Source: Betaproteobacteria bacterium
GTDB taxonomy: Bacteria; Pseudomonadota; Gammaproteobacteria; Burkholderiales; CAIKXV01
Assembly (NCBI GenBank): GCA_947458265.1
Contig: CANGYF010000005.1
Coordinates: forward strand, 62,001 to 126,000
Direction of reading: 5' to 3'
Length of the DNA stretch: 64,000 bases
Positions within the stretch are counted from its first letter, which is position 1; every line of letters starts with the position of its first letter. Below the pieces are notes generated by a model that saw only the letters and a program-made list of their open reading frames with translations, was not told where the DNA came from and did no database searches. A program made the translations under genes and the position numbers. Positions 1,159-20,776 of the stretch are shown here, in pieces.

Positions 1159-1351
1159 CCAGGCAGCACACAGCGCGGTCGAGGTCAGTGAAAGGACCTC
1201 GACCGCTGGTTCATTGCTGGAGCCAGCGTCGCCGCGGCGTTCTTTGTGCCAACCAGTCTGTCGAGATCCCGCTGCAGCAAGGCCGAGTGAACCTGCAGGA
1301 GATCGTCAAGACACCGGCACGCATTGCGGCCGCTGCGCTGCCCCGACTCGA

Positions 1352-1774
1352 TCAGGGCCCGTCCCAGGGATCGACGACCGGCACCTGAAGGTCCGCGAAG
1401 TGCCGCACGTTTCGGGTTGCAAGCGTCGCCCGCCTGGAAACCGCGATTCCCGCAATCTGCGTATCGCGCATGTCTACAGGCTTGCCAGCGCGCTGTCGGC
1501 AGGCTGCCAAAGCGGCTGCCGCGGCAGCCGCCCCGCGATCGAAGTCCAGCACGCGATCGTCGAGGTCCACCGCAACGATCTGCTCGAAAGCGGCCTCCAG
1601 CGACTGCCGCCGCCGTCCGTCAGGCAGGAGCGCCAGGCCAAGACGCGATTCGAACACCGTGATGCTCGTGATCCAGATCGATTCCGTGGGCTGTCGATCA
1701 AGCCACGCCACGACGGCCACGTCCGGCCTGCTGTTCATCAACGCCGACAGCACGTTGGTGTCGAGGATGATCAT
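1352..1774 (-). CDS. FitB/VapC-type PIN-domain ribonuclease toxin
   Basis: 140 residues, the normal size of a PIN-domain toxin. VapC/FitB proteins are Mg-dependent endoribonucleases held inactive by a cognate antitoxin. The N-terminus MIILDTNVLSALM carries the first catalytic Asp (D5); E42 lies in 'ITVFESRLG'; D101 and D104 lie in the 'KPVDMRDTQIAGIA' segment. At the fourth acidic position the protein has Asn (N122 in ATRNVRHF), a frequent variant. The start codon overlaps the upstream antitoxin stop by 4 bp (ATGA), the usual translational coupling of type II pairs. FitB is the closest family I recognise, because the partner is a ribbon-helix-helix protein of the FitA type. Confidence 0.9.
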   Translation of the reverse strand: MIILDTNVLSALMNSRPDVAVVAWLDRQPTESIWITSITVFESRLGLALLPDGRRRQSLEAAFEQIVAVDLDDRVLDFDRGAAAAAAALAACRQRAGKPVDMRDTQIAGIAVSRRATLATRNVRHFADLQVPVVDPWDGP

Positions 1775-2019
1775 CCGTCGAACTGGGCCGAGCGCGGGTG
1801 CTGGCCGCGCAGTTCAGGCAATTCGGTCGTGAGGCCGATCTTCGCAAAGCGCGCCGCGATCCGGGACCCCAGCTTCGTGACTGGCGGGTTGTCTCCGCTG
1901 ACCGCGTTACGGAGGATCTGGCGGATCTCTTCCTCCATGCTTCGCTTGTGCAGCGCGGCTCGGCGCTTGAGACGTACCTTGACGTCCTCTTCCAGGTCGC
2001 GAACGATGAATTGAGCCAT
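1771..2019 (-). CDS. FitA/VapB-type ribbon-helix-helix antitoxin
   Basis: 82 residues. The N-terminal 40 residues form an Arc/MetJ-like ribbon-helix-helix domain: MAQFIVRDLEEDVKVRLKRR is the DNA-binding strand and first helix, and 'RSMEEEIRQILRNAV' is the second helix typical of FitA. The C-terminal half should wrap the toxin. ATG at 2019 is chosen because GGAGG sits about 9 bases upstream and the domain begins there; a longer in-frame extension to 2133 has no family-like sequence. It is translationally coupled to the PIN toxin. Autorepression is expected in this family, and a perfect palindrome 26–39 bp upstream of the start is a likely operator. Confidence 0.9.
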   Translation of the reverse strand: MAQFIVRDLEEDVKVRLKRRAALHKRSMEEEIRQILRNAVSGDNPPVTKLGSRIAARFAKIGLTTELPELRGQHPRSAQFDG

Positions 2020-2044
2020 CTCCGAGCCTCCAATCCTCTTGGGC

Positions 2045-2058
2045 GCTATCATGATAGC
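2045..2058. promoter_or_regulatory. Palindromic operator-like site upstream of the toxin–antitoxin pair
   Basis: The 14-bp sequence GCTATCATGATAGC is a perfect palindrome just upstream of the antitoxin start. On the minus strand it reads TGCTATCA directly joined to TGATAGC. From memory, Neisseria FitA recognises TGCTATCA and TGATAGCA half-sites separated by a spacer, so the half-site sequence fits while the spacing here is zero. The position fits autoregulation of the fitAB-like operon. Confidence 0.6.
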
Positions 2059-2237
2059 ACTGTGTCCACGGCCCGATCCACGACGGTCAGGCGCACCAGT
2101 GTCGCTGCATGTGAAGGCGCATGCGAGGGGCAAATCAGGGCGCTGGAGCTGAAACTGCGCTTGCTGCCGTGACGACGATCAAGCGCAGGGGATCCCTGAC
2201 CACCTGCGCGATCAGTCGGTAGCGCAGCCGCCCTGCC

Positions 2238-2526
2238 TCACGGCCCCTCCGCCGGCGTCACCTCCGCCCCTACCCGCTCCACGATCAGCTTGTAATGCTC
2301 TGGCCGACGATGCGCAGCGAAGTTGAACATCGTCTTCTTCAGGTCGTTGGCAAGGTCGATATCGGCGTTGAAGCAGACCACCTCGTCCTCCTCGCTGACC
2401 GACTTCGCGACGATCTCGCCGTTCGGGGCGACGATCGTGCCGCCGTCCACGCCGATTTCGACCAGCGGGTCACCCGGTGCTGCGCCGGCGAGCCTCGCAT
2501 TCCGGATGACCAGGTCGATCGGATAC
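2238..2526 (-). pseudogene. Chimeric remnant: amidohydrolase N-terminus joined to nitrilase-family C-terminus
   Basis: Directly after the stop of the upstream gene (2529–2531) the same frame reads a typical amidohydrolase opening (DLVIRNARLAG, then 'PLVEIGVDGG'), but with Ile (ATC) where the start Met would be. Within a few residues it continues as a carbon–nitrogen hydrolase C-terminus: 'GGTIVAPNGEIVAKS', then 'DEVVCFNADIDL' and 'FNFAAHRRPEHYKLIVERVG'. The two families share a short G-G-x-I-V-A string at exactly the junction. About 95 codons remain; all nitrilase catalytic residues are absent. The only candidate start codons are internal (for example ATG at 2450, preceded by the GTG of GVDGG). 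I interpret it as debris from a deletion that fused two genes. Confidence 0.65.
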
Positions 2527-2528
2527 GC

Positions 2529-3521
2529 CTAGATCTTGAACAGGTCGAGCACCGACGGGCAGAACAGTTCCTCCGGTGCGACCTTGCGCGCCGACAGGCC
2601 CTGCTCGAAGTGGTAACGGGTGAAGGTCTCGAGCACGTGGTGGTTCGGCTCCAGGCCGTAGCTCCAGTAGTTCTCGCCCATCAGCTGCTTCGCCTTGTGG
2701 AACTCGGACACGCCCCAGGGCAGGCTCACGAACAGGTGGCCGATCTGGCCCAGCTCGTACAGCGACAGCTCGCGTGCCTGCAGGAAGGCCTTGAACACGC
2801 TGACCGGCAGCCACGGATGCTTCTCGACCAGCGACTTGCGGATGCCGATGATGTGCATCGTCGGGAAGATCTTCGTGCGGCGGAAGTAGTCTTCCTCGGT
2901 GGTACGGTAGTCGGGGAACAGTCGCGCGACGTTCTTCGCGCCGCGCTCGAAGCACGACGGCGCGCGCGCGCTGATCATCGCGTCGATCTCGCCTGCTTCC
3001 AGCATGCCGGACAGGGTCTTGCCGTCGGGCACCTGCTGCAGGTCGACGTCCGGCGGCAGCTTGATCGGTGCGCGCTCGAGCCGGCCCGGGTCTTCGACGC
3101 CGCCGCGGCGCCAGTGGATCGACGAGGGCTTCACGCCGAAGTCGTCCTCGAGGATGCCGCGGATCCAGACGTTGGCGGTGATCTGGTACTCGGGGAGCCC
3201 CACCGTCTTGCCGGCGAGATCCTGCGGCTTGTCGATGCCACGGTCGGTGCGGATGTACACGCCCGAGTGGCGGAACAGGCGCGACACGAAGGCCGGGATG
3301 CCGACATACGCGTTGCTGCCGCGCGAGGTCATCATCGTGTGGCTGGAGATCGACAGCTCGGAGATGTCGAATTCCTGGAAGCCGAACGCGCGATGGAAGG
3401 CCTCCTCCGGTTCGATGTTGACCGCCGCGACATCGCAGCCCTCGATCTGCACCCGGCCGTCGAACAATCCGCGCGTGCGGTCGTAGTCGCATACACCCAT
3501 GCTTACCTGAAGCTTGCCCAC
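2529..3521 (-). CDS. 4,5-dihydroxyphthalate decarboxylase-like / NMT1-type substrate-binding protein (paralogue 2)
   Basis: 330 residues, same family as the protein at 148–1158. It begins 'MGKLQVSMGVCDYDRTRGL', a common opening of this family, followed by a lobe with 'EEAFHRAFGFQEFDISELS' and the segments 'GKTVGLPEYQITANVWIRG' and 'EEDYFRRTKIFPTMHIIGI', which align with the first paralogue. No signal peptide is seen. In known members the fold either decarboxylates 4,5-dihydroxyphthalate or binds small aromatic or pyrimidine-like solutes; the sequence alone does not decide. The neighbouring amidohydrolase/nitrilase remnant suggests it once sat in a catabolic cluster for a cyclic amide or related compound. 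That is inference. Confidence 0.8.
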   Translation of the reverse strand: MGKLQVSMGVCDYDRTRGLFDGRVQIEGCDVAAVNIEPEEAFHRAFGFQEFDISELSISSHTMMTSRGSNAYVGIPAFVSRLFRHSGVYIRTDRGIDKPQDLAGKTVGLPEYQITANVWIRGILEDDFGVKPSSIHWRRGGVEDPGRLERAPIKLPPDVDLQQVPDGKTLSGMLEAGEIDAMISARAPSCFERGAKNVARLFPDYRTTEEDYFRRTKIFPTMHIIGIRKSLVEKHPWLPVSVFKAFLQARELSLYELGQIGHLFVSLPWGVSEFHKAKQLMGENYWSYGLEPNHHVLETFTRYHFEQGLSARKVAPEELFCPSVLDLFKI

Positions 3522-3571
3522 TGAGTCTTCTCCTGTGCCTGTTGCCGTGTGCCGTGTTCTTTCCGACCCGC

Positions 3572-4558
3572 CTACTCCGTTGCCTTGATCCCGAACGCCT
3601 TCACCGCCTTCGACCAGCGCGCCACCTCCGCGCCGAGGAACTTGCCGAACGCTTCGGGCGACACCGGATTCAGGTCGTAGCCGCGCTCGCGCAGCACCGT
3701 CGCAGCCGAGCCGCTGCCCGAGAGGATGCCGTTGATCGTGGCATTGAGCTTCGTCACCACCGGCCGGGGCGTGCCGGCCGGGGCGAGCATGCCGAACCAG
3801 CCGCGGATGTCGGTGCCCTTGAAGCCCGACTCGTCCAGCGTCGGGGTGTCGGGCGCCTGCACGAAGCGCTTGTTGGACGTCACCGCGAGCAGCCGCAGCT
3901 TGCCCGCCTTCACCTGCGGCAACGCAGCGCCGGGACCGGTGAACGTGGTCTGCACCTCGTTACCGAGGTTGGCTGCCATCAGCGGACCGGTGCCGCGGTA
4001 CGGCACGTGCGTCATGTCCAGCTTCGCAGTCGAGTAGAACAGCGCCTGCGACACATGCGAGATGGCCGAACCCGATCCGTAGTTGTACTTGCCCGGGTTC
4101 GCCTGCACCAGCTTCACGAAGTCGACCATCGTCTTCGCCGGTACCGACGGATGCAGCGTGATCAGGTAAGGCTGCTCGACCAGGATGGCGATCGGCGCGA
4201 AATCCTTCATCACGTCGAACGGCGGCGGCGAGATCAGCGCCGGCGAGATCACCGTCGCGGCATCCACGATGGTCAGCGTGTAGCCGTCGTTGATCGCACG
4301 AGCGCCGATCTGGGTGCCAACGACGCCCTGCGCACCGGCACGGTTGTCGATCAGCACCTGCTGCCCGAGCTGCTCGGACAGCTGGGGCGCGATCGCGCGC
4401 ATCACGAAGTCGGTGCCGCCGCCGGGCGGGAACGGCACGATCACGCGCAGCGGCTTCACCGGATAGTCGGGGGCGGCGGCGGCGAAGGCGCTGGTGGCCA
4501 GCACGGCCGACAGGCAGCAGGCGCCGACATGCAGCACGGGGGGGCGGTGCAGTTTCAT
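3572..4558 (-). CDS. TctC/Bug-family tripartite tricarboxylate transporter substrate-binding protein
   Basis: 328 residues. A Sec signal peptide is evident (Met-Lys-Leu-His start, hydrophobic core to about residue 25, cleavage near SAFAAA). The mature start YPVKPLRVIVPFPPGGGTDF is the signature of Bug receptors, followed by 'LGQQVLIDNRAGAQGVVGT', 'YTLTIVDAATVISP' and the late 'GWFGMLAPAGTPRPVVTKLN' block. Bug proteins bind carboxylates in the periplasm; many are orphans without membrane partners, as here. ATG at 4558 is chosen because it opens the signal peptide and has GGAG upstream; the open frame continues to 4828 without family sequence. The ligand is unknown. It lies 50 bp after the previous gene on the same strand. 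Confidence 0.92.
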   Translation of the reverse strand: MKLHRPPVLHVGACCLSAVLATSAFAAAAPDYPVKPLRVIVPFPPGGGTDFVMRAIAPQLSEQLGQQVLIDNRAGAQGVVGTQIGARAINDGYTLTIVDAATVISPALISPPPFDVMKDFAPIAILVEQPYLITLHPSVPAKTMVDFVKLVQANPGKYNYGSGSAISHVSQALFYSTAKLDMTHVPYRGTGPLMAANLGNEVQTTFTGPGAALPQVKAGKLRLLAVTSNKRFVQAPDTPTLDESGFKGTDIRGWFGMLAPAGTPRPVVTKLNATINGILSGSGSAATVLRERGYDLNPVSPEAFGKFLGAEVARWSKAVKAFGIKATE

Positions 4559-4619
4559 GCGTGTTTCTCCGAGGCTCGAACGGCGTTGTTGAGCCTCGGA
4601 ATATAACCCGCCCATCCTG

Positions 4620-5237
4620 TCACCGGACCACGGGCGGCGGCAGCACGATCTGCGTCTGCGTGACGAGCGCGACCAGCCTGCCATCCTCGTTCGTGATACG
4701 CGTCTGCCACACGTTGGTGCTGCGCCCGACGTGCAGCGGCGTCGACTCCGCGAGCAGCACTGGCGGCTGTCCGGCGGCGAAGAAGTTGGTCTTCGACTCG
4801 AGCGTGGTCGTGCGCCAGCCGGGTTCAAGGTTCATCACGGTGCCCGCCGCGCCGAGCAGGTCTGCGAAGGCCATCAGCACGCCGCCGTTGACCCGCTGGC
4901 CGCGATTCATGTGGTACGGACGGATCGGCAGGCGGGCGACGATCTTCGTTCGCGTGGCCGACACCAGCTGCACGCCGAGCCGGCGAGCCGGCTGGCCACC
5001 CATGATCAGGTCGACGCCATCGATGCCGTTCTTCCGGAACGGCGGCGCCTTGGCTGCCGCAGCCGCCTGCCGGGGCTTTGCGGCGGTCTCGGCCTTCTTC
5101 ACGGCGGCCTTCTTCGCTGCGGCCGTCTGCGTCGCGGTCTTCTGCGTCGCGGTCCCGGTCTTCTTCGCCACGGCCTTCTTCGCCGTCCCCCTGCCCACCG
5201 ACTCCACCCCTGCCCCCTTCTTCACAGCTGCGGCCAT
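4620..5237 (-). CDS. PaaI-like hotdog thioesterase with histone H1-like Lys/Ala-rich N-terminal tail
   Basis: 205 residues in two parts. Residues 1–66 are almost entirely Ala, Lys, Thr and Gln, with repeated AKK/KKA units (KKAVAKKTG, AAAKKAAVKKAE), like bacterial histone H1-like proteins. Residues 70–205 are a hotdog domain of the PaaI/YdiI type: 'NRGQRVNGGVLMAFADLLG' aligns with the HGG-x5-D region, with Asn in place of the His, then 'TTTLESKTNFFAAG' and 'RITNEDGRLVALVTQTQIVL'. The catalytic part should hydrolyse acyl-CoA thioesters. The tail may bind nucleic acid or another polyanion. The frame is open through the tail and the start ATG at 5237 is the natural one, so the tail looks real. 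It is divergent from the Aas-like gene. Confidence 0.85.
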   Translation of the reverse strand: MAAAVKKGAGVESVGRGTAKKAVAKKTGTATQKTATQTAAAKKAAVKKAETAAKPRQAAAAAKAPPFRKNGIDGVDLIMGGQPARRLGVQLVSATRTKIVARLPIRPYHMNRGQRVNGGVLMAFADLLGAAGTVMNLEPGWRTTTLESKTNFFAAGQPPVLLAESTPLHVGRSTNVWQTRITNEDGRLVALVTQTQIVLPPPVVR

Positions 5238-5408
5238 CTCTTCCCTGCTCCTGTCGTCTGTATACGGGCGTCACTTTTCGCAGGCGCAGACGATACAGGG
5301 TCGATACCCGGTCTGGCGAGCCTCGGCGCGCGCGCTTTGACGTACCGAGGGGGGCGGACCACAATCCCCCGCCAGCAACCGATCCGGATCCTCGAGCCCA
5401 TTCCAGCC

Positions 5409-7610
5409 ATGACCGACACCCAAGCCTCCCCCGGTGGATTGCGTCCCATGCGCCGCCTCCTGCAGGGGCTGCTGCGCGCCGTCTTCGGCGTGCTGTTCCG
5501 GGTGCGCATCCAGGGCGATCGCAACGGCTTCGATGCGCCGCGACTGCTGATCGTCGCCAACCACGAGTCCTTCCTGGATGGCCTGATCCTGGGCCTCTAC
5601 CTGCCGGTCGACCCGGTGTTCGTGGTGCATACCGGCATCGCGCGCAACCGCTGGTTCAGGCTCGTGCTTTCGCTCACCGACTACCTCGCCGTGGACCCGA
5701 CCAGCCCGATGGCGATGAAGACGGTCGTGCGGCTGGTAGACACCGGGCGACCGGTGGTGATCTTCCCGGAAGGGCGCATCACCGTCACCGGCAGCCTGAT
5801 GAAGGTCTACGACGGGCCCGCCTTCGTGGCGGCGAAGACCGGTGCCACGCTGGTACCGGTGCGCCTGGACGGCCCGGCGCGCACCTGGTTCAGCCGCCTG
5901 TCCGGGCAGTACCCGCGCAGGCTGTTCCCGCAGATCACGATGTCGATCCAGCCGCCGACGCGGATCGACATCCCGCCCGAGGGCCCGGCGAAGGTGCGCC
6001 GGCGCAAGGCGGGCGAGGCCATGCGCAGGGTGATGCAGCAGATGCTGTTCAGCTCCCAGCCCAAGGTCAGCCTGTACTCGTCGATGCTTGATGCGATGGA
6101 CATCCACGGCCGCAGGCACCGGGTGGTCGAGGACGTGAAGCAGATCGAATACAGCTATGGCGACCTGCTGAAGATGACCTTGGCGCTCGGCCGGCTCGCC
6201 TCGCGCCATGTCGCCCCGGGGGAGCACGCCGGGGTACTGATGCCCAACCTCGCGACCACGCTCGGGCTGCTGGTCGGCCTGGGTGCGATGGGCCGAGTAC
6301 CGGCAATGCTCAACTTCACCGCCGGCACCGACGGGTTGCAGAACGCCTGCCTGGCCGCGGGCATCCGCACCATCTTCACCTCGCGCCAGTTCCTCGAGCA
6401 GGCGCGCCTGGAGCCGACGGTGGCGGCGCTGCAGGGCATCCGCGTGGTCGCCCTGGAGGACCTGCGCGGCGAGCTGGGGCTGGGCGACCGGCTATGGCTG
6501 CTGGCAATGATGGCCTTCCCTCGCCTGGCCGGGCGCGCAGTCGAGCCGGAGGACCCGGCGGTCGTGCTGTTTACCTCAGGCTCCGAAGGCAAGCCCAAGG
6601 GCGTCGTGCTGTCGCACCGTGCGCTGCTGTCCAACATCGCACAGATCCGTTCGGTGATCGACATCTCGCCGACCGACAAGGTGCTCAACGCCCTGCCCAT
6701 GTTCCACTCGTTCGGTCTCACCGGCGGTGCGCTGCTGCCGCTGACCACCGGCACCGGCGTCTTCCTCTATCCGTCGCCCCTGCACTACCGGGTGATCCCC
6801 GAGGTCATATACGACCGTGGCTGCAGCGTGCTGTTCGGCACCAGCACCTTCCTCGGAAACTACGGCAAGCATGCACATCCGTACGATTTCTACCGGCTGC
6901 GCTATGTCGTGGCAGGTGCCGAGAAACTGTCCGACACCGTGCGCGATACCTGGGTCGAGAAGTTCGGCATCCGTATCCTCGAGGGCTATGGCGCGACCGA
7001 GACCGCTCCCGTGATCGCGGTGAACACGCCGATGGCGTTCCGGCGCGGCACGGTCGGCCAGTTGCTGCCCTCGATGCAGGGACGCTTGGTGCCTGTGCCC
7101 GGCATCGAGCGCGGCGGCATGTTGCATGTGAGCGGCCCGAACCTGATGTCCGGCTACCTGCGCGTCGAGAAGCCGGGTGTGCTGGAGCCACCGAAGTCGG
7201 CACTGGGCGACGGCTGGTACGAGACCGGCGACATCTGCGACATCGATGCAGACGGTTTCGTCACCATCCTTGGCCGCGTCAAGCGTTTCGCCAAGATCGC
7301 AGGCGAGATGGTGTCGCTGGAGGTTGTCGAAAAGCTTGCAGCCGTGGCATCCCCGGCGGCACAGCATGCCGCCACCGCCATCGCGGACGCACAGCGGGGC
7401 GAGTCGATCGTGCTGTTCTCGACCGACACCGGCCTGAACCGGGAACGGCTGCAACAGGCTGCGCGCAGCGCCGGACTACCCGAAATCGCGGTCCCCCGCT
7501 CGCTCGTGATGGTCGAGGCCCTGCCGCTGCTGGGCACCGGCAAGATCGATTACGCAGCGCTGCGCGCGCAGGCGCTGGCGCGGGCAGGCGCCGCCACGAC
7601 CCCGGCCTGA
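5409..7610 (+). CDS. aas: Bifunctional acyltransferase / acyl-ACP synthetase (Aas-type)
   Basis: 733 residues, close to the 719 of E. coli Aas. The N-terminal 220 residues are a PlsC-type glycerophospholipid acyltransferase with the HX4D motif (NHESFLD, H52–D57) and the 'VVIFPEGRITVTGS' block. The rest is an AMP-forming acyl ligase: the P-loop-like 'VVLFTSGSEGKPKGVVLSH' near residue 385, 'LEGYGATETAPVIAVN', 'GWYETGDICDID' and 'ILGRVKRFAKIAGEMVSLE', ending with the catalytic Lys region GTGKIDY. Aas re-acylates lysophosphatidylethanolamine at the inner membrane using acyl-ACP it makes itself. ATG at 5409 is chosen from the domain start; the open frame extends upstream to 4731 through the neighbouring gene's antisense strand. 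E. coli Aas is the only comparison used. Confidence 0.9.
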   Translation: MTDTQASPGGLRPMRRLLQGLLRAVFGVLFRVRIQGDRNGFDAPRLLIVANHESFLDGLILGLYLPVDPVFVVHTGIARNRWFRLVLSLTDYLAVDPTSPMAMKTVVRLVDTGRPVVIFPEGRITVTGSLMKVYDGPAFVAAKTGATLVPVRLDGPARTWFSRLSGQYPRRLFPQITMSIQPPTRIDIPPEGPAKVRRRKAGEAMRRVMQQMLFSSQPKVSLYSSMLDAMDIHGRRHRVVEDVKQIEYSYGDLLKMTLALGRLASRHVAPGEHAGVLMPNLATTLGLLVGLGAMGRVPAMLNFTAGTDGLQNACLAAGIRTIFTSRQFLEQARLEPTVAALQGIRVVALEDLRGELGLGDRLWLLAMMAFPRLAGRAVEPEDPAVVLFTSGSEGKPKGVVLSHRALLSNIAQIRSVIDISPTDKVLNALPMFHSFGLTGGALLPLTTGTGVFLYPSPLHYRVIPEVIYDRGCSVLFGTSTFLGNYGKHAHPYDFYRLRYVVAGAEKLSDTVRDTWVEKFGIRILEGYGATETAPVIAVNTPMAFRRGTVGQLLPSMQGRLVPVPGIERGGMLHVSGPNLMSGYLRVEKPGVLEPPKSALGDGWYETGDICDIDADGFVTILGRVKRFAKIAGEMVSLEVVEKLAAVASPAAQHAATAIADAQRGESIVLFSTDTGLNRERLQQAARSAGLPEIAVPRSLVMVEALPLLGTGKIDYAALRAQALARAGAATTPA

Positions 7611-12583: not shown

Positions 12584-13345
12584 TCAGCGCCCTCCCCCGG
12601 CCGGTGCCGATGCTGGATCGGCGGCGGCCTGTGCCTCGGCGATCAGCGCCGCCAGCGTGCCCGGGATGCGGCCGTCAACGTTCAGCGGCGAATCGATCCG
12701 GTTCACCTGGTCGGCGTCGACCGCCACCGTGCCCTTGCGCCGCGGCAGGTAGTGATTGGCCGGCTCTGTGCCCCACTCCGGCATCAGGGCATAGCCGCCA
12801 CGCTCACGGATCGCGCGCGACACTTCCGAGTCGGCGTCATGGATGTCGCCGAACAACCGCGCGCTGGTCGGGCAGGCCACCACGCAGGCGGGCTTGCGCT
12901 GCGCCTCCGGGATCGCCTGGTCGTAGATGCGGTCGACGCACAGCGTGCACTTCTTCATCACCTGCTGCTTCTCGTCGATCTCGCGCGCGCCGTACGGACA
13001 GGCCCAGGCGCAGTACTTGCAGCCGATGCACTTGTCGTAGTCGACCAGCACGATGCCGTCTTCCTTGCGCTTGTAGGAGGCGCCGGTCGGGCACACCGGC
13101 ACGCAGGGCGGATCCTCGCAGTGCAGGCACGACTTCGGGAAATGGACGGTCTCGGTGCACGGGAACTCGCCCACCTCGTAGGTCTGCACCCGGTTGAAGA
13201 AGGTCCCGGTCGGGTCCTTGTCGTACGGGTTCTCGTCGCTGAGGAAGCCGGCGACGCCGGAGGTGTTCCATTCCTTGCAGCTGGTGACGCAGGCGTGGCA
13301 GCCGACGCAGACGTTCAGGTCGATGACCAATGCGAGCTGGGTCAA
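12584..13345 (-). CDS. Four-cluster ferredoxin-type electron-transfer subunit (DmsB/SoeB-type)
   Basis: 253 residues with four ferredoxin-like cysteine groups visible: CVGCHACVTSC near residue 12, CLHCEDPPCVPVC near 73, CIGCKYCAWAC near 105, and 'CTLCVDRI' plus 'CVVACPTSA' near 130–160. That is the full set for four [4Fe-4S] clusters. It bridges the molybdopterin subunit and the membrane anchor. The start ATG overlaps the stop of the catalytic subunit by 4 bp. The length is slightly above DmsB (205) owing to a C-terminal Pro/Ala-rich tail after about residue 200. Confidence 0.93.
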   Translation of the reverse strand: MTQLALVIDLNVCVGCHACVTSCKEWNTSGVAGFLSDENPYDKDPTGTFFNRVQTYEVGEFPCTETVHFPKSCLHCEDPPCVPVCPTGASYKRKEDGIVLVDYDKCIGCKYCAWACPYGAREIDEKQQVMKKCTLCVDRIYDQAIPEAQRKPACVVACPTSARLFGDIHDADSEVSRAIRERGGYALMPEWGTEPANHYLPRRKGTVAVDADQVNRIDSPLNVDGRIPGTLAALIAEAQAAADPASAPAGGGR

Positions 13346-16300
13346 CGCGGTTCTCCCTTCTTCAATTCACGGCTGATCGCGGACATCTCGGTCGCCAGTC
13401 CCTTGCCGGCAAAGAAGGCCTGCCAGCCGCGGCGGGTCGGCGTGGTGCCGGGCATCGCCGGCATCGATTCGAACTGCGGGAAGCTCTCCTTCGCCTCGCC
13501 CGGGTCCGCCTTGCTGATGCGCACCCGCACGTCGTACCAGCCGGCCTGGCCAGTGATCGGATCCGAATTGGACAGGCGCGCACCGGAGGCATCGGCCGGC
13601 AGTTCCTCCGATATCAGGTGGTTCAGCAGGAAGCCCTTCTGCGACTCGTTCGCCTGGGGCCCGAGGTTCCAGGCGCCCTTCGCCTTGCCGATCGCATTCC
13701 AGGTCCAGACCGTGCCCGGCTCGACCGCCTCGGTGTAGCGGCACAGGCAGCGCACCTTGCCGTGCATCGACTCGACCCAGATCCAGTCGTCGTCGGCGAT
13801 GCCGGCCGCCTTCGCGGTGGCCGGGTTCACCATCAGGTAGTTGTGCGCATGGATCTGGCGCAGCCAGGCGTTCTGCGAATCCCACGAGTGGTACATCGCC
13901 ATCGGCCGCTGGGTGACCGCGTTCAGCGGATAGCGCTCGCGGTCGGTCGCCTGTGCCTCGAGCGGCGAATACCAGAACGGCAGCGGATCGAAGTAGGTCT
14001 CGACCCGCTCGCGCAGCGCCTCCGGCGGCCGCCGGGTGCTCGGCCCCTTGCCCTGGGCCGCAAGGCGGAACTTCTGGAGCACCTCGCAGTAGAGCTGGAT
14101 CACGACCGGATCGGGATGCATGCGCAGCTTGTTCTTCACCGCCCAGTCGTTGTAGCCCTGGTTCCAGTTGCGCATGTACTGGTGTTCCGGCGGCATCGCG
14201 TAGTGGAACACGCAGTTGTTCTTCGCGTACATCTCCCACTGGTCCGGGTTCGGCTCGCCGACCAGCGCCTTGTCGCCGTTCGCACCACGATAGCCTGCGA
14301 GGAAACCGACGCCGGAGTCGGGCGCGGTCTGGAAGTTGATCACGAAGTCCTTGTAATCCTTGAACTTGCGCGAACCGTCGGCCGCGGTGAACGCCGGAAA
14401 CTTCAGTCGCGAGGCGAGTTCGACCACCACGTCCTGGAACGGCTTGCAGTCGCCCTTGGGCGGCACCACCGGCACCCGAACGGAATCGCACGGCCCGTCG
14501 AACTCGGAGATCGGCCGATCGAGCAGCGACATCGCGTCGTAGCGTTCGAGGTAGGTGGTGTCGGGCAGGACCAGGTCGGCGTACGCGCACATCTCGGACT
14601 GGAACGCATCGCAGACGATGATGAACGGTATCTTGTACTGCCCGTCGGCGTCCTTGTCGTTGAGCATCTTCCGCACTTCGGAAGTGTTCATCGACGAGTT
14701 CCACGCCATGTTGGCCATGAACATCAGCAGCGTGTCGATCCGGTACGGGTCACCGCGCCACGCATTGGTGATCACGTTGTGCATCATCCCGTGCACCGCC
14801 AGCGGATGTTCCCAGGAGAAGGCCTTGTCGATGCGCACCGGCCTGCCTTCGGCATCGATGAACAGGTCGTCGGGCCCTGCCGGGAAGCCCAGCGGTGCAC
14901 CGCCCAGCGGCGTGTCCGGCTTCACCATGTCGGGCGAGTTGGGCACGCGGGCGATCACCGGCGGCGTGCCGCGCGGGTACGGCGCCTTGTGGCGGAAGCC
15001 GCCTGGCCGGTCGATGGTGCCGAGCAGGGTCATCAGGATCGACAGGGCGCGGATCGTCTGGAAGCCGTTCGAGTGCGCCGCGAGCCCACGCATCGCATGG
15101 AAGGCCACCGGGTTGCCCGTTACGCGGTCGTGCTTCTTCCCCCAGGAATCGGTCCAGGCGATCGGCAGCTCGATCCGGTGGTCGCGTGCCATCACGCCCA
15201 GCTCGGTAGCCAGCCGGCGGATGGTCTCGGCCGGGATGCCGGTGATGCCGGCCGCCCATTCCGGGGTGTTCTCGACCAGCCGCTCGGCGAGCAGCTGGAA
15301 GGCCGGCTTCACCGGCGTGCCGTCGTGCAGACGGAAGCTGCCGAACAGCTGCGGATCGCTGTCGCCCGAGTGGTTGACCACCGGCTTGCCGCTATGGCGG
15401 TCCCACCAGAGCTGGTTGTGCTGGCGGAACGGGTTCATGTGGGCGAGGCCCTCGCCGCCCACCGTCATGCCATGCGAATCGCTGTCCGGGTCGATGTTCA
15501 CCAGATGGCCGGCGTTCGAATAGCGCGCGACGAAATCACGGTCGTACAGCCCGAGGCGGATCAGTTCATGGCACAACGCGAGCATCAGCGCGCCGTCGGT
15601 GCCGGGACGGATCGGGATCCATTCGTCGGCGATCGCCGAATAGCCGGTACGCACCGGATTGATCGAGATGAACTTGCCGCCGTCGCGCTTGAACTTCGAC
15701 AGCGCCATCTTCAGCGGGTTCGAGTGGTGGTCCTCGGCGGTGCCGATCATCACGAACAGTTTCGCCCGGTCGAGGTCAGGACCACCGAACTCCCAGAACG
15801 AACCGCCGATCGTGTAGATCATGCCAGCGGCCATGTTGACCGAGCAGAAGCCGCCATGCGCAGCGTAGTTCGGCGTGCCGAACTGCCGCGCGAAAAGGCC
15901 GGTCAGCGCCTGCATCTGGTCACGGCCGGTGAACAGGGCGAATTTCTTCGGGTCGGTCGAGCGGATCTTCCCCAGCCGCTCGGTCATCAGGTCGAACGCC
16001 CGATCCCAGGAGATCACCTCGAACTCGGCCGCACCCCGCTCCGAGCCCGGCTTGCGCAGCAGCGGCTTCGTCAGCCGCGCCGGCGAGTACTGCTTCATGA
16101 TGCCCGAGGCACCCTTCGCGCAGATCACCCCCTTGTTCAGCGGGTGGTCGGGATTGCCCTCGATGTAGCGCACCTCGTCGTTGCGCAGGGTCACCCGGAT
16201 GCCGCAGCGGCACGCGCACATGTAGCAGGTCGTGTTCTTCGTGCGCACGGAACCGCCGGCCTGGCCTTCATGTTCGGCGGGACGGTCGTGCTGCAGGTCG

Positions 16301-16365
16301 AGCGGGGGCGGTGCGGCGGTGTCCAAGGCGGTCTCCGGAGTGTGCGCGGCAGGCAATGGCGGCAC
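13342..16365 (-). CDS. Molybdopterin oxidoreductase catalytic subunit (SoeA-like)
   Basis: About 1007 residues from the GTG at 16365. Near the N-terminus is the Fe-S motif CYMCACRCG with a fourth Cys about 27 residues later ('GVICAKGASG'), then 'PARLTKPLLRKPG', a likely Mo-ligand Cys in 'AAHGGFCSVNMAAG', 'DLFIDAEGRP' and the C-terminal dinucleotide-binding domain ('NAWLRQIHAHNYLMVNP', 'SNSDPITGQAGWYDVRV'). This pattern fits the SoeA/PsrA branch of the DMSO reductase family. There is no twin-arginine signal peptide, which agrees with SoeABC sulfite dehydrogenase acting on the cytoplasmic side. The start is uncertain: the frame opens with a TTG at 16479 inside the upstream gene; other candidates are TTG 16356 and GTG 16248. 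Conserved sequence begins about residue 44. Substrate is inferred only. Confidence 0.88.
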   Translation of the reverse strand: MPPLPAAHTPETALDTAAPPPLDLQHDRPAEHEGQAGGSVRTKNTTCYMCACRCGIRVTLRNDEVRYIEGNPDHPLNKGVICAKGASGIMKQYSPARLTKPLLRKPGSERGAAEFEVISWDRAFDLMTERLGKIRSTDPKKFALFTGRDQMQALTGLFARQFGTPNYAAHGGFCSVNMAAGMIYTIGGSFWEFGGPDLDRAKLFVMIGTAEDHHSNPLKMALSKFKRDGGKFISINPVRTGYSAIADEWIPIRPGTDGALMLALCHELIRLGLYDRDFVARYSNAGHLVNIDPDSDSHGMTVGGEGLAHMNPFRQHNQLWWDRHSGKPVVNHSGDSDPQLFGSFRLHDGTPVKPAFQLLAERLVENTPEWAAGITGIPAETIRRLATELGVMARDHRIELPIAWTDSWGKKHDRVTGNPVAFHAMRGLAAHSNGFQTIRALSILMTLLGTIDRPGGFRHKAPYPRGTPPVIARVPNSPDMVKPDTPLGGAPLGFPAGPDDLFIDAEGRPVRIDKAFSWEHPLAVHGMMHNVITNAWRGDPYRIDTLLMFMANMAWNSSMNTSEVRKMLNDKDADGQYKIPFIIVCDAFQSEMCAYADLVLPDTTYLERYDAMSLLDRPISEFDGPCDSVRVPVVPPKGDCKPFQDVVVELASRLKFPAFTAADGSRKFKDYKDFVINFQTAPDSGVGFLAGYRGANGDKALVGEPNPDQWEMYAKNNCVFHYAMPPEHQYMRNWNQGYNDWAVKNKLRMHPDPVVIQLYCEVLQKFRLAAQGKGPSTRRPPEALRERVETYFDPLPFWYSPLEAQATDRERYPLNAVTQRPMAMYHSWDSQNAWLRQIHAHNYLMVNPATAKAAGIADDDWIWVESMHGKVRCLCRYTEAVEPGTVWTWNAIGKAKGAWNLGPQANESQKGFLLNHLISEELPADASGARLSNSDPITGQAGWYDVRVRISKADPGEAKESFPQFESMPAMPGTTPTRRGWQAFFAGKGLATEMSAISRELKKGEPR

Positions 16366-16438
16366 CTGCGACCGGGCCGATGTTACCGGCCGACCTGCAA
16401 AAACGTACTCAGTATGGTTTATGGGCGCATAAGGGAAA

Positions 16439-17299
16439 TCAGCGCAGGTATTCCTTCTGCCACGCCTTGTAGTCCGCAACCCGGGTCACCGCATCCATCT
16501 GCTCGGCGCTCGCGATCCTCGGCTTGAGGTCGGCCGGCGCACCGCCATTGATCAGGTGGGTATAGACCTCGGTGAGGGTCTTGACCACCGCCGCGGTCGG
16601 CTGGTGCCCCTGGAGCAGCACGCGCCCGCCGTTGGCGGCGAACTGTTCGCGGGTGATCGAGGCCGGAGCCGATCCGATGATCACGGGAAGGCCGGTCGCG
16701 GCACGGATCGCGGCGAGCTGCTCCAGGCTTTCCAGGCCGACCACGAACACGCAGTCGACGCCGGCCGCGGCATAGGCTTTCAGGCGTGCGAGCGCGCCCT
16801 CGATGCCTTCACCGCGGATCGCGGAGGTACGGCCTGCGATCACCAGCGAAGGATCGCGGCGGGCTGCCAGCGCAGCTTTCATCTTGCCGACGCCTTCGGC
16901 GATGGGAATGAAGGTTTCGCCGGCGGATCCGAACGGTGTGGGCAGCGCGGTATCCTCGATCGACAGGCAGGACACGCCCGCATGCTCGCACTCTTCGACC
17001 GTGCGCATGACGTTCAGCGCATTGCCGTAGCCATGGTCGGCGTCGACGATCAGCGACAGGTCGCTCGCACGCTGGATGCGGCGGATCTGGTCGGCGAACT
17101 CGGTGAGCGTGAGCACGATCAGGTCGGGTGCCGCGAGCGTCGTGTTCGACGCCACGGAGCCCGCCAGGATGCCCAGTTCATAGCCGACCGAGCGCGCAAG
17201 CCGGGCCGACAGTCCGTCGAAGACGCTCGCCGGCGACCGGCATTCGGTACCAGCCAGGATGGCGCGCAGCCGCTGCCGCTGCTCGGTTGCACTGATCAT
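16439..17299 (-). CDS. Oxaloacetate decarboxylase-like (isocitrate lyase/PEP mutase superfamily)
   Basis: 286 residues. The metal-binding 'LIVDADHGYGNALNVMRTV' and the following 'SIEDTALPTPFG' are characteristic of the Pseudomonas PA4872-type oxaloacetate decarboxylase, a TIM-barrel enzyme of the PEP mutase/isocitrate lyase superfamily. The isocitrate lyase catalytic KKCGH motif is absent. The opening 'ASVFDGLSARLARSVGYELG' and 'GGSVAS'-like 'AGSVASNTTLAAPD' also match. It should split C–C bonds of 2-oxo-dicarboxylates in the cytoplasm. It lies upstream of the SoeABC-like genes on the same strand, about 75 bp from the assumed start of the catalytic subunit; whether they are linked functionally is unclear. 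Confidence 0.85.
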   Translation of the reverse strand: MISATEQRQRLRAILAGTECRSPASVFDGLSARLARSVGYELGILAGSVASNTTLAAPDLIVLTLTEFADQIRRIQRASDLSLIVDADHGYGNALNVMRTVEECEHAGVSCLSIEDTALPTPFGSAGETFIPIAEGVGKMKAALAARRDPSLVIAGRTSAIRGEGIEGALARLKAYAAAGVDCVFVVGLESLEQLAAIRAATGLPVIIGSAPASITREQFAANGGRVLLQGHQPTAAVVKTLTEVYTHLINGGAPADLKPRIASAEQMDAVTRVADYKAWQKEYLR

Positions 17300-17357: not shown

Positions 17358-17939
17358 TCAGGTCGTGCCGCGTTCCAGCCACTTGTTCACCTGCGGCATG
17401 TTGAATGTCGAAAGCTGGTCCATAAGGCGCGCCGGTTCGGTGTCCGTCAGCACCATGCCCCGGTGCTTGGGGTGGACGAACCCCTGGGCCACGCAGTGAT
17501 CGAGGAAGGCGAGCAGCTGGTCGTAGTACCCGGCGACGTTCAGCAGTCCGCAGGGCTTCGAGTGATAGCCGAGCTGCGACCAGGTAAGGACTTCGAAGAA
17601 CTCCTCGAAAGTGCCGATGCCGCCCGGCAGCGCGATGAATGCATCGGACAGCTCCGCCATCATCGCCTTGCGTTCGTGCATCGACTCGACGACATGCAGT
17701 TCGGAGAGGCCGGTGTGCGCCACCTCCTTCTCGACCAGGCGCCGCGGCGTGACGCCGACCACGCGCCCGCCGGCGGCCATGGCGGCGTCGCCCACGACGC
17801 CCATCAGCCCGACCCGCCCGCCGCCATAAACCAGCGTGCAATCGGCCTCGACGATCTGCCGCGCAAGCATCTCGGCAGCCGCACGGTACTCCGGCAGCAC
17901 GCCGGGATTGGACCCACAGAACACACAGACCGCCTTCAT
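17358..17939 (-). CDS. LOG-family cytokinin-riboside-monophosphate phosphoribohydrolase
   Basis: 193 residues, the normal length. The LOG signature is complete: MKAVCVFCGSNPG at the start, 'LVYGGGRVGLMGVVGDAAM', 'ESMHERKAMMAELSDAFIALPGGIGTFEEFFE' (the PGGxGTxxE nucleotide-binding motif) and 'HSKPCGLLN'. LOG proteins hydrolyse nucleoside 5'-monophosphates to base plus ribose 5-phosphate in the cytoplasm. ATG at 17939 is chosen because homology begins there and a G-rich ribosome-binding site lies just upstream; the open frame to 18095 adds unrelated sequence. It is divergent from lemA. Confidence 0.93.
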   Translation of the reverse strand: MKAVCVFCGSNPGVLPEYRAAAEMLARQIVEADCTLVYGGGRVGLMGVVGDAAMAAGGRVVGVTPRRLVEKEVAHTGLSELHVVESMHERKAMMAELSDAFIALPGGIGTFEEFFEVLTWSQLGYHSKPCGLLNVAGYYDQLLAFLDHCVAQGFVHPKHRGMVLTDTEPARLMDQLSTFNMPQVNKWLERGTT

Positions 17940-18267
17940 CCCGTATCCCCCCGCCTCGGTTTCATGCGCTTCCCTGCCCGTCGCCCGGCAGCACACCGGC
18001 CGTCGCGGCGCGCGCGAATTGTCGTATAGATGGTACAGCTTCGCCACCGACGGGCCTGCCGGCGGAGCGCCAACGCGGCCCGATCCCCGCAGCACGTGCA
18101 GCTGGCCTGCATTGTCATACTCCAGACGGTGTAAAGTTTCGCCGCCTCCGGCCGTTCAGGTAGGCGTCGCCGGATGACCGAGGCGGGGTTGCCGCTGCCC
18201 CGGCACCCGGCGACGATCACACCGCGCCGCCTGCCGCCCCGGCCTCTCTCCCGAACGGACCTGCACC
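17940..18267. repeat. 328-bp divergent intergenic region with an imperfect direct repeat
   Basis: The gap between the LOG gene and lemA carries no convincing gene. Two related segments are seen on the plus strand: 18019–18045 starts TTGTCGTATAG and ends GCTTCGCC; 18112–18143 starts TTGTCATACT and ends GTTTCGCC. They share both ends and differ in the middle by about five bases in length. They could be paired regulator-binding sites or duplicated promoter elements for the two divergent genes. I could not assign clean -35/-10 boxes. Confidence 0.35.
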
Positions 18268-18840
18268 ATGATCCTCGTACTCGTGATCCTGCTGGCAATC
18301 GCCCTTGTCGTCGGCGTGTACTTCGTCATGATCTACAACGCCCTGGTCCAGGTGAAGCACAACGTGTCCAAGGCCTGGGCCAACATCGAGGTGCTGCTCA
18401 AGCAGCGGCACGACGAGCTGCCCAAGCTGATCGAGACCTGCAAGCAGTACATGAAGTTCGAGCAGGACACCCTGCAGCGGGTGATCGAGGCGCGCAGCCG
18501 TGTCCATGCGGCCGCGCAGTCGCAGGACATCGCCGCGCTGGGTCCGGCCGAGGGCGCGCTGCGCATGGGGCTGGGCAACCTGTTCGCGCTGGCGGAGGCC
18601 TACCCGGACCTGAAGGCCAACGCGAGCTTCCAGCAGCTGCAGAGCCGCATCAGCGCCCTGGAGGACTCGATCGCCGACCGGCGCGAGTTCTACAACGAGA
18701 GCGTGAACATCAACAACGTGCGCATCGAGCAGGTGCCGGACGTGATCGTGGCGCGCCTGCTCGGCTTCGGCCCGTTCAAGCTGCTCGAGTTCACCGCCGA
18801 GGAAACACGCGACGTCGACGTGAAGCAGCTCTTCACCTGA
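18268..18840 (+). CDS. lemA: LemA family protein
   Basis: 190 residues: an N-terminal transmembrane helix (residues 1–22, 'MILVLVILLAIALVVGVYF') and the LemA domain, with the typical 'YNALVQVKHNVSKAWANIEVLLKQRHDELPKLIE' region, long helices to residue 150 and 'RREFYNESVNINN'. Most LemA proteins share this layout and are inner-membrane anchored; their biochemical role is unresolved. The C-terminus (DVDVKQLFT) is short. The next gene follows after 31 bp and encodes a GIDE-like membrane protein, a recurrent neighbour of LemA, so a joint membrane complex is plausible. Confidence 0.92.
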   Translation: MILVLVILLAIALVVGVYFVMIYNALVQVKHNVSKAWANIEVLLKQRHDELPKLIETCKQYMKFEQDTLQRVIEARSRVHAAAQSQDIAALGPAEGALRMGLGNLFALAEAYPDLKANASFQQLQSRISALEDSIADRREFYNESVNINNVRIEQVPDVIVARLLGFGPFKLLEFTAEETRDVDVKQLFT

Positions 18841-18871
18841 CCCGGCGGCACCCGGCAGCAGGCGCCCGCCC

Positions 18872-19795
18872 ATGTCACTGCACGCCGCTTCGCCGGTCAA
18901 GGCCAAGCCGCGCGGACGGTTCTCGTGGGCGAACTGGACGACCTCGTTCGCCCATGTCGGCCTGCTCGGCATCGCGGCCGAAGCCGAAAGCCGTCCGGTC
19001 ACCGGCGTCTGCCTGCTGCTGATCGCCGCCATCAGCCTGTTCGCCTGGGCCGGGAACTACAGGCGCTGGCGGCTGATCGTCGACACGCCCACCTCCAGCA
19101 TCGACTCGGCCGCGCAAGGCTACGTGGAACTGTCCGGCAGGGCCCGGTTGCCGGACGCACCGCGGGTGGTGAGTGAGCTGACCGGGGAAGTCTGCTGCTG
19201 GTACTGGTTCAAGGTCGAGAAGAAGGACTCGAAGGACCGCTGGACGCACGAGCGCGGCGGCGAGAGCCACCTGCCCTTCGTGCTCGACGATGGCAGCGGC
19301 CATTGCCTGGCCTACCCGTCGGAAGCGGAGGTGCACTCGCACCGGCGCAAGACCTGGATCGACAACGACCGCCGCTTCACCGAAATCACCATCCTGCCCG
19401 ATGACCGTCTGTACGCGATCGGCGCCTTCTCCACGCTGCGCCCGCTCGACGGCGAAGCGGCCGTGCGCGCCGAGATCGCGGCGCTGATGGCCCAGTGGAA
19501 GCTCGACCGTCCGGCCCTGCTGGAGCGGTTCGACCTCGATCGCGACGGCGAGGTAGACCTGAAGGAATGGGAGCTGGCACGGCGGCAGGCACGGCGCGAG
19601 GTCGAGAGGACGCGCGCGAACCGCCCCCGGCCGCCAGCCGTGCACGTGATGCGTCGCCCCCCGGACGGACGCCTGTTCATGCTGTCAAACCTCGACCCTG
19701 AAGCGATGGCCCGGCGCTACCTGCGTTGGAAGTGGTTCCACCTGGGCGTGTTCTTCGCCGGTCTGGGCATCGGCAGCTGGCTGCTGCTGCACTGA
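18872..19795 (+). CDS. GIDE/E3-ligase-like domain membrane protein with an EF-hand
   Basis: 307 residues. A hydrophobic segment at about 44–62 and a C-terminal one at about 288–306 place it in the membrane. Between them is a GIDE-like (MUL1-type) domain: 'ELTGEVCCWYWFKVEKK', 'LPFVLDDGSGHCLAYPSEAEV' and 'FTEITILPDDRLYAIGAF' fit that family. Bacterial GIDE proteins lack the RING finger and have no known ligase activity. Residues 221–232 (DLDRDGEVDLKE) match the EF-hand calcium loop at all key positions (D221, D223, D225, G226, E232). The gene is 31 bp after lemA and probably in the same operon. Confidence 0.8.
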   Translation: MSLHAASPVKAKPRGRFSWANWTTSFAHVGLLGIAAEAESRPVTGVCLLLIAAISLFAWAGNYRRWRLIVDTPTSSIDSAAQGYVELSGRARLPDAPRVVSELTGEVCCWYWFKVEKKDSKDRWTHERGGESHLPFVLDDGSGHCLAYPSEAEVHSHRRKTWIDNDRRFTEITILPDDRLYAIGAFSTLRPLDGEAAVRAEIAALMAQWKLDRPALLERFDLDRDGEVDLKEWELARRQARREVERTRANRPRPPAVHVMRRPPDGRLFMLSNLDPEAMARRYLRWKWFHLGVFFAGLGIGSWLLLH

Positions 19796-19798
19796 GCG

Positions 19799-20776
19799 GT
19801 GAATCATGGTCGAATGGCGGCTGCCGTACCGGACGCGCCGTCCATGCCGAACACCCTGTCCTCCCCGCTGACCGCCTCGCTCGCCGGCTTCTCCGCCGCG
19901 GGCTTCCATCGCATCGCCTATGCGGACTGGGGCGATCCGGACAACCCGCATGTCGTGGTCTGTGCACACGGCCTGACCCGTAACGGCCGCGACTTCGACT
20001 GGCTCGCCCGGCGGCTGGCACCGCACGCGCGCGTGGTCTGCCCCGACATCGTGGGGCGCGGGACCAGCGACTGGCTGCCGGACGCATCGCTGTACGGCTA
20101 TCCGCAGTACCTCGCGGACATGAACGCACTGATCGCGCGCATCGGCGCACCCCATGCACGCGCCGGGCGCCCCTTCACGATCGACTGGGTCGGCACGTCG
20201 ATGGGCGGGCTGATCGGGATGATGCTGGCCGCCGCGCCCGGGTCGCCGATCCGGCGGCTGGTGATGAACGACGTGGGACCGGTGCTGGCACGCGAAGGCC
20301 TCACCCGGATCGGTACCTACGCCGGCGGCGACCCGCGCTTCGACAGCGCGCAGGCGTTCGCCGACTGGTATGCCGGCCTGATGAAGCCCTGGGGTGCGGG
20401 TACGCCGGCGCTGAGCGCCGCGTGCCTGCAACACCTGGTTGCTCATGGCATGCGGCGCTGCGAGGACGCCGCCGGCAAGGCGTACTTTGCGCCCGCCTAC
20501 GATCCGGCGATCGCCGCCGGCTTCCGGGGCAAGGTGTTCGAGCGCGACGTCACCCTTTGGCCGGTCTGGGAGAAAGTATCCATCCCGGTCCTGGTGCTGC
20601 GCGGCGGCGATTCCGAGCTGCTGCGCGAGGACACGGCATGCGTGATGGTCGACGGCCATCCCGATCGCCGGTTGCTGGTCTTTCCCGGCATCGGCCATGC
20701 ACCCGCGCTCGCCAGCGATGACCAGATCGAACCGGTCGCGCAGTTCCTCCTGGAAGATCAGTCGTCCGGCGGGTAG
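19799..20776 (+). CDS. Alpha/beta hydrolase
   Basis: 325 residues from the GTG at 19799; in-frame ATGs at 19814 and 19844 are equally possible and none has a clear ribosome-binding site. The fold shows 'VVVCAHGLTRNGRDFDWLA' (oxyanion-hole HG), the nucleophile elbow VGTSMGG, a catalytic Asp candidate in 'LVLRGGDSELL' and the catalytic His in FPGIGHAPAL near the end. It is a cytoplasmic serine hydrolase of unknown substrate. Its last 19 bp overlap the 3' end of the convergent AI-2E transporter gene. Confidence 0.85.
   Translation: MNHGRMAAAVPDAPSMPNTLSSPLTASLAGFSAAGFHRIAYADWGDPDNPHVVVCAHGLTRNGRDFDWLARRLAPHARVVCPDIVGRGTSDWLPDASLYGYPQYLADMNALIARIGAPHARAGRPFTIDWVGTSMGGLIGMMLAAAPGSPIRRLVMNDVGPVLAREGLTRIGTYAGGDPRFDSAQAFADWYAGLMKPWGAGTPALSAACLQHLVAHGMRRCEDAAGKAYFAPAYDPAIAAGFRGKVFERDVTLWPVWEKVSIPVLVLRGGDSELLREDTACVMVDGHPDRRLLVFPGIGHAPALASDDQIEPVAQFLLEDQSSGG

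Follow-up and report, generated by a model that had tools for sequence, protein, structure and literature searches.

In the window, i.e. the whole 64,000-nt stretch of DNA analysed here, a lemA gene was followed after 31 bases, on the same strand, by a gene encoding a GIDE/BAM-type membrane protein with one EF-hand (Table 1). The EF-hand was present in 169 of 172 non-redundant GIDE-family genes, and 154 of these 169 EF-hand GIDE (EF-GIDE) genes had lemA immediately upstream, in the same orientation and with less than 400 nt between the open frames. The EF loop is very probably a true metal site. That calcium regulates a LemA complex through the GIDE-EF protein is the reading favoured here, and it is held with moderate confidence.

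The lemA and GIDE-type genes and their products

The lemA product was a clear member of its family (149.8 bits with PF04011, for which the cut-off is 26.2) and had a solved relative, 2ETD (E 3.9e-23). Against the MamQ model NF040966, whose equivalog cut-off is 250 bits, it scored 75.1 bits, which rules it out as MamQ. LemA genes were widespread: of 120 genomes sampled in the order, 79 had one. The flanks of the N-terminal anchor contained on average 0.00 K+R before and 1.91 after the hydrophobic segment in 76 relatives, and 0.08 and 1.91, respectively, in a second set of 79; by the charge-bias rule, this suggests that the LemA bundle of the class-2 type is cytoplasmic.

Table 1. Features of the lemA-GIDE region and its flanks (positions in the window)
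Feature	Position	Strand	Evidence
Large molybdopterin oxidoreductase	13342-16479	-	PF00384
LOG/'lysine decarboxylase' family protein, divergent neighbour of lemA	17358-18095	-	PF03641
lemA, LemA-family protein, 190 aa, class-2 (signal-anchored, EF-GIDE-linked)	18268..18840	+	PF04011 match; groups with EF-GIDE-linked LemAs
LemA N-terminal membrane anchor, residues ~3-22, read by eye	18274..18333	+	Charge bias suggests N-out/C-in
GIDE/BAM-type membrane protein with one EF-hand, 307 aa	18872..19795	+	PF12483 via homologues; AlphaFold2 mean pLDDT 90.6
Two N-terminal helices, residues 19-38 and 41-71, holding the first two predicted membrane segments	18926..19084	+	Model helices; hydropathy and charge bias
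GIDE beta domain, first part, residues 72-189, OB-like in model	19085..19438	+	Model strands; VIA-align
EF-hand helix-loop-helix module, residues 209-250, before the last GIDE strands; apparently an insertion	19496..19621	+	Model helices 195-211, 213-220, 230-250; paralogue comparison
EF-hand calcium loop DLDRDGEVDLKE, residues 221-232	19532..19567	+	Conservation counts; PDB profile search
GIDE beta domain, closing strands, residues 257-272	19640..19687	+	AlphaFold2 model
Third, C-terminal transmembrane helix, residues 276-306; no RING after it	19697..19789	+	AlphaFold2 model; protein end at 307
Alpha/beta hydrolase, directly downstream of the GIDE-type gene	19799..20776	+	PF00561, E 1.9e-12

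Alone, the GIDE-type protein of the window scored 16.4 bits against PF12483, under the cut-off of 23.6. In an alignment of 18 homologues sharing 28% to 85% identity with it, PF12483 was matched at E<=0.01 by all 18 members (best 4.1e-11), and other members of the EF-hand GIDE family exceeded the cut-off; judged from these relatives, the window protein is a diverged GIDE/BAM protein. The AlphaFold2 model, built on a 70-sequence alignment, placed the GIDE domain (residues ~72-272) between the two N-terminal membrane helices (19-38 and 41-71) and the C-terminal one (276-306). A fold search of the model with Foldseek gave no match at E<=0.001, and VIA-align returned OB folds (RPA, MCM, and SSB) with Z up to 8.2, a level that, according to the tool, may reflect only a common arrangement, so that "OB-like" is a lead only. 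The GIDE-type protein had no match in the plasmid collection.

The same PF12483 family includes human MAPL/MUL1, in which a GIDE domain is likewise flanked by transmembrane helices. The window protein differs from MAPL/MUL1 in possessing two helices before the domain instead of one, in carrying an EF-hand within the domain, in a charge bias that suggests a cytoplasmic location, and in having no RING. No RING family was among the family matches down to E 1 and the chain ends at residue 307; a reading of the protein as an E3 ligase was thus ruled out, and there is no reason to expect ligase activity.

Among the flanking genes, the alpha/beta hydrolase had a relative within the stretch examined at 37 of 180 loci, some genomes being counted twice, and it is an optional neighbour outside the core pair. 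A very long frame (13330-16527) opposite the molybdopterin oxidoreductase gene was probably spurious.

Conservation of the EF-hand loop

Homologues were taken from 80 loci, mostly of Betaproteobacteria with a few of Gammaproteobacteria, and from 100 stretches of the same order and class. They yielded 183 GIDE-family proteins of at least 200 aa including that of the window, and 173 remained after rows with identical last 120 residues had been dropped, near-copies being retained. The 172 genes mentioned above are these without the window protein, whereas counts over 170 rows include it and set aside three sequences with no EF module (L269, L275, and L276). Identity to the window protein among the 170 rows was 26% at the lowest, with a median of 41%. 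One homologue, with 73% identity to the window GIDE gene over 234 residues, was from a MAG contig titled Bordetella parapertussis (L030), a title that may be a mislabel.

A canonical EF-hand was defined as a 12-residue loop with oxygen ligands at positions 1, 3, 5, and 12, glycine at position 6, and a hydrophobic residue at position 8, and the window loop, DLDRDGEVDLKE, conformed to it. Throughout the 170 proteins, position 1 was D, position 3 was D, N, or S, position 8 was hydrophobic, and position 12 was E. Position 5 was D, N, or S in 169 of them and position 6 was G in 166, with an asparagine there in L054; positions 1, 3, 5, 8, and 12 were all canonical in 169. Ranked by conservation among the 299 alignment columns, D221 was 2nd and E232 7th; positions 3, 5, and 9, at which D, N, and S interchange, came at 50 to 56, and the non-ligand positions 2, 4, 7, 10, and 11 at 102 to 245, position 2 being mainly L (113/171). 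Near-invariant ligands combined with drifting non-ligand positions are the signature of selection for a metal site.

Background rates were far lower: the strict loop pattern was present in 165 of 173 real proteins versus 5 of 17,300 shuffled ones, and neighbouring reading frames, spurious ones among them, gave 18 occurrences over 1.13 million residues. When the ligand spacing was slid along the alignment, residue 221 scored 0.99 and no other position more than 0.62. In the AlphaFold2 model, helices 213-220 and 230-250 flanked the loop, with a confidence of 91 to 96 over the module. Compared with all PDB sequences, the family profile had 54 matches at E<=1. The loop (profile positions 216-227) was spanned by 52 of them, and about 90% were named as EF-hand proteins (centrin-type Cdc31, polcalcin, GCAP, MICU1, and troponin C), only the best match, Cdc31 at E 3.4e-4, being below 0.001. 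The window protein itself scored 18.2 bits against Pfam EF-hand_5 (cut-off 25.9), and 15 of the 18 homologues in the alignment matched this family with E<=0.01, the lowest E being 2.3e-5.

By sequence and by model, each window chain had one EF-hand. EF-hands normally work in pairs, and calcium affinity may be low because only one is present per chain. Glutamate at loop position 12 is usual for calcium rather than magnesium.

Within the GIDE domain, the EF-hand has the look of an insertion, since one paralogue (L022/L269) from the same genus (genome G010), on which this comparison rests, had 16 residues between landmark positions 184 and 263, versus a median of 78 (range 50 to 81) in the EF family. 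This paralogue without the EF insert (L269, nt 3818-4675) had no LemA in the stretch examined.

Some of the homologue samples were found with an EF-containing profile and thus favour the EF-hand, whereas searches with PF12483 do not. Of 300 genomes sampled from the order, 19 matched the latter model, the window's own genome not being among them, and 18 of the 19 had the EF-hand, the exception being G564. In one of these 18, G456, the EF-GIDE gene (L265, nt 3989-4927) was broken by an in-frame stop, indicating either a pseudogene or a sequence error. Across the phylum, 10 of 398 genomes passed the PF12483 cut-off, nine with the EF-hand and one with a fusion protein described below. The EF-containing profile matched in 103 of 399 genomes of the order, a few of the matches being fragments or non-EF relatives, and in 16 of 398 across the phylum, 11 with the EF-hand; the EF-less ones among these 16 were LemA-linked in G334, G348, and G416, and two more were weak or fragmentary.

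Linkage to LemA and a second LemA system

Beyond the 154 EF-GIDE genes with lemA immediately upstream, LemA was near and on the same strand in five cases and elsewhere in the locus in three, and the locus was cut by a contig end in two. No LemA was seen in the stretch examined at the other five of the 169 (L179, L212, L233, L237, and L244); for three of these five, a LemA of the class-2 type was located elsewhere in the genome (G021, G641, and G667). LemA was the sole widely conserved neighbour of EF-GIDE, found at 155 loci, the next real neighbour being found at 37; a neighbour group of 122 loci was, on inspection, the opposite-strand shadow frame of lemA. Among 31 genomes matching both the GIDE-family and the LemA searches, the lower-scoring LemA type shared a contig with GIDE in 29. 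The exceptions were G021, with LemA on another contig, and G004, in which LemA was not found and the GIDE gene was cut by a contig end. At two loci (L223, nt 3947-5895, and L235, nt 3112-6175), two EF-hand GIDE genes faced each other with LemA upstream of one only.

In genome G334, a natural GIDE-GIDE-LemA fusion of 759 residues without the EF-hand was encoded (L118, nt 790-3066, and L275, nt 3290-5566, both minus strand). This fusion is direct support for a functional link between LemA and GIDE, and synteny together with the fusion suggests that the two proteins make physical contact. Besides the fusion (L118/L275), LemA-linked GIDE proteins without the EF-hand were observed at L119/L276, L120, and L021. 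The LemA-GIDE link therefore does not need calcium in general and, since EF-less GIDE proteins adjoin LemA, it seems to predate the EF-hand or not to depend on it.

The original prediction had described LemA as paired with a GIDE-like membrane protein and had placed a canonical EF-hand loop at residues 221–232. The gene coordinates proved exact, both family assignments were borne out by the PF04011 score and by PF12483 in all 18 relatives, and the loop lies in a helix-loop-helix of the AlphaFold2 model. It had also reasoned that the match would be accidental if the EF-hand positions were not conserved in close homologues; positions 1, 3, and 12 were kept in every one of the 170 sequences and the conserved EF-hand is tied to LemA-linked GIDE, so this objection fails. 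As to how often the EF-hand accompanies LemA-linked GIDE proteins, which it had proposed to check, the 154 of 169 given above is the count for EF-GIDE with LemA directly upstream, and EF-less cases exist.

A second LemA was encoded outside the window in the same genome (L318, nt 3485-5189, minus strand). It was of the lipoprotein type and was followed by a TPM-domain protein (PF04536, E 4.8e-41); this is likewise a two-gene LemA module, but LemA is a lipoprotein there and the partner has a TPM domain. Relatives of this LemA (class 1) were sampled as 30 of the top-scoring LemA loci plus the second copy of the window's genome, 31 chosen loci with about 1.5 kb on each side of most. A lipobox-like signal was present in 19 of the 21 relatives whose start could be placed, and TPM was on the same strand in the stretch examined, mostly adjacent, at 28 of the 31 loci. 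None of the 31 stretches examined contained a GIDE protein, and no TPM match was found in the EF-GIDE loci. In a LemA tree, classes 1 and 2 were split on one branch with a support of 83/85; the split in the tree is provisional because of this support, long branches, and an unsettled bootstrap, and the differences in lipobox, TPM, and EF-GIDE carry more weight.

Since a lipoprotein LemA-TPM pair and an anchored LemA-EF-GIDE pair share a genome, one bacterium may possess two LemA modules, one on either face of its inner membrane. TPM domains may bind calcium. One could imagine LemA as a general scaffold on both faces, each with a metal-binding partner, i.e. lipoprotein LemA with TPM in the periplasm and anchored LemA with EF-hand GIDE in the cytoplasm, the two jointly reporting how calcium differs between the two sides of the membrane, or the collapse of this difference when the membrane is damaged. 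This extension, drawn from gene content and models, is improbable as it stands; among the open-licence articles listed, no support for a link between TPM and calcium was found.

Membrane side and a possible role of calcium

Mean K+R over the 170 GIDE-type sequences, counted in segments of our choosing, was 0.6 between TM1 and TM2 and 3.0 after TM2, and 2.8 before TM3 and 0.4 at the C-terminus. Before TM1 it was 1.9 in residues 12-24 and 1.7 when counted from the last methionine (136 rows); a higher N-terminal value, 2.7, was obtained over stop-to-stop frames, in which residues upstream of the actual start may have been counted. In the fusion of G334, two hydrophobic stretches, read by inspection, separate the second GIDE domain from LemA, and GIDE and LemA would therefore share one side of the membrane. 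From the charge bias and the domain order in the fusion, we infer that the GIDE-EF domain is on the cytoplasmic side.

In the mechanism proposed, LemA and the GIDE-EF protein would form a two-gene inner-membrane module, in which LemA, a membrane-anchored helical bundle, would act as the scaffold, and the GIDE-EF protein would be held by three membrane helices with its OB-like GIDE domain in the cytoplasm and its EF-hand looped out ahead of the closing strands. On a rise of calcium near the membrane through influx, membrane damage, or a local store, the EF loop would bind it, and the calcium-bound EF helices would reorient or would pair with the EF-hand of a second copy. Such a change would alter the assembly of the LemA-GIDE complex, and the cellular process served would probably be the organisation or repair of the envelope. 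That calcium is the true ligand, that the role is regulatory and not structural, and that dimerisation occurs are likewise proposals.

The main rival to calcium regulation is a structural site, at which a permanently bound calcium would stabilise the GIDE fold or oligomer and nothing would be sensed. The EF-hand is single and unpaired, lemA is the only conserved gene nearby, and near-invariant ligands would be equally expected at such a site. Resting free calcium in the cytoplasm is normally low. With the charge bias pointing to the cytoplasm, a weak single hand would be mostly empty there, and the paralogue L022/L269, in which the insert is missing, still has its GIDE domain, so the EF-hand is dispensable for the fold. 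A structural site is thus a serious candidate, although rather unlikely.

Another possibility is that the GIDE-EF protein faces the periplasm, where it would be loaded with calcium at millimolar levels in the manner of envelope EF-hand proteins. Precedents, as given in the accessible parts of the articles, are the BAM domain of human MAPL, which faces the intermembrane space (PMC4457424), and Caulobacter CaBP, a periplasmic EF-hand protein (PMC13171946). The charge bias of the 170 sequences favours the opposite side, and two helices precede the GIDE domain here versus one in MAPL. Furthermore, Cys108 was kept in 170 of 173 sequences, 26 of which had no Cys145, which argues against an obligatory disulfide between the two. 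A periplasmic site is accordingly considered improbable.

That the loop binds a different metal, i.e. magnesium, manganese, or a lanthanide, is more doubtful still. Methylotroph genera or families (Methylobacillus and Methylophilaceae) contribute some of the relatives, and lanmodulin is among the weak PDB profile matches. However, the glutamate at position 12 is invariant and the EF-GIDE family, judged by record titles, is not confined to methylotrophs. Position 2 of the lanmodulin loop is proline, unlike the leucine that predominates here. The last reading, an accidental match of an acidic stretch without metal-binding function, has the sub-threshold Pfam EF-hand score of the window protein in its favour and next to no probability, being contradicted by the homologue conservation, the background rates, the helix-loop-helix of the model, and the PDB profile matches.

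The bacterial EF-hand proteins EfhP and CaBP share the canonical EF-hand loop with the window protein but have, as far as the accessible text of the sources goes, two and three EF-hands, respectively, versus one in the window protein, inside a LemA-linked, membrane-bound GIDE domain. Neither LemA with GIDE nor an EF-hand GIDE protein appeared among the matches listed in a search of open-licence full-text literature. The accessible main text of an article on BAM/GIDE evolution (PMC4457424) does not mention LemA, the EF-hand, or calcium, and that of one on bacterial EF-hand architectures (PMC7016017) mentions neither LemA nor GIDE. The GIDE/BAM, LemA, and EF-hand families are known, and their combination was not seen among the open-licence matches listed. 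For the earlier statement that LemA–GIDE neighbourhoods are known, no backing was found among the literature matches listed.

Little is known of the job of LemA outside magnetosomes, MamQ, a proposed membrane hub, being the only LemA-family member tied to a process according to the accessible part of a 2016 article (PMC4902198), and the ancestral job of the BAM/GIDE domain is called open in that of PMC4457424. A near-invariant calcium loop in the partner of LemA offers one chemical handle on the function of both LemA and BAM/GIDE, and a conserved EF-hand next to LemA makes a calcium-sensitive LemA membrane complex a concrete, testable idea.
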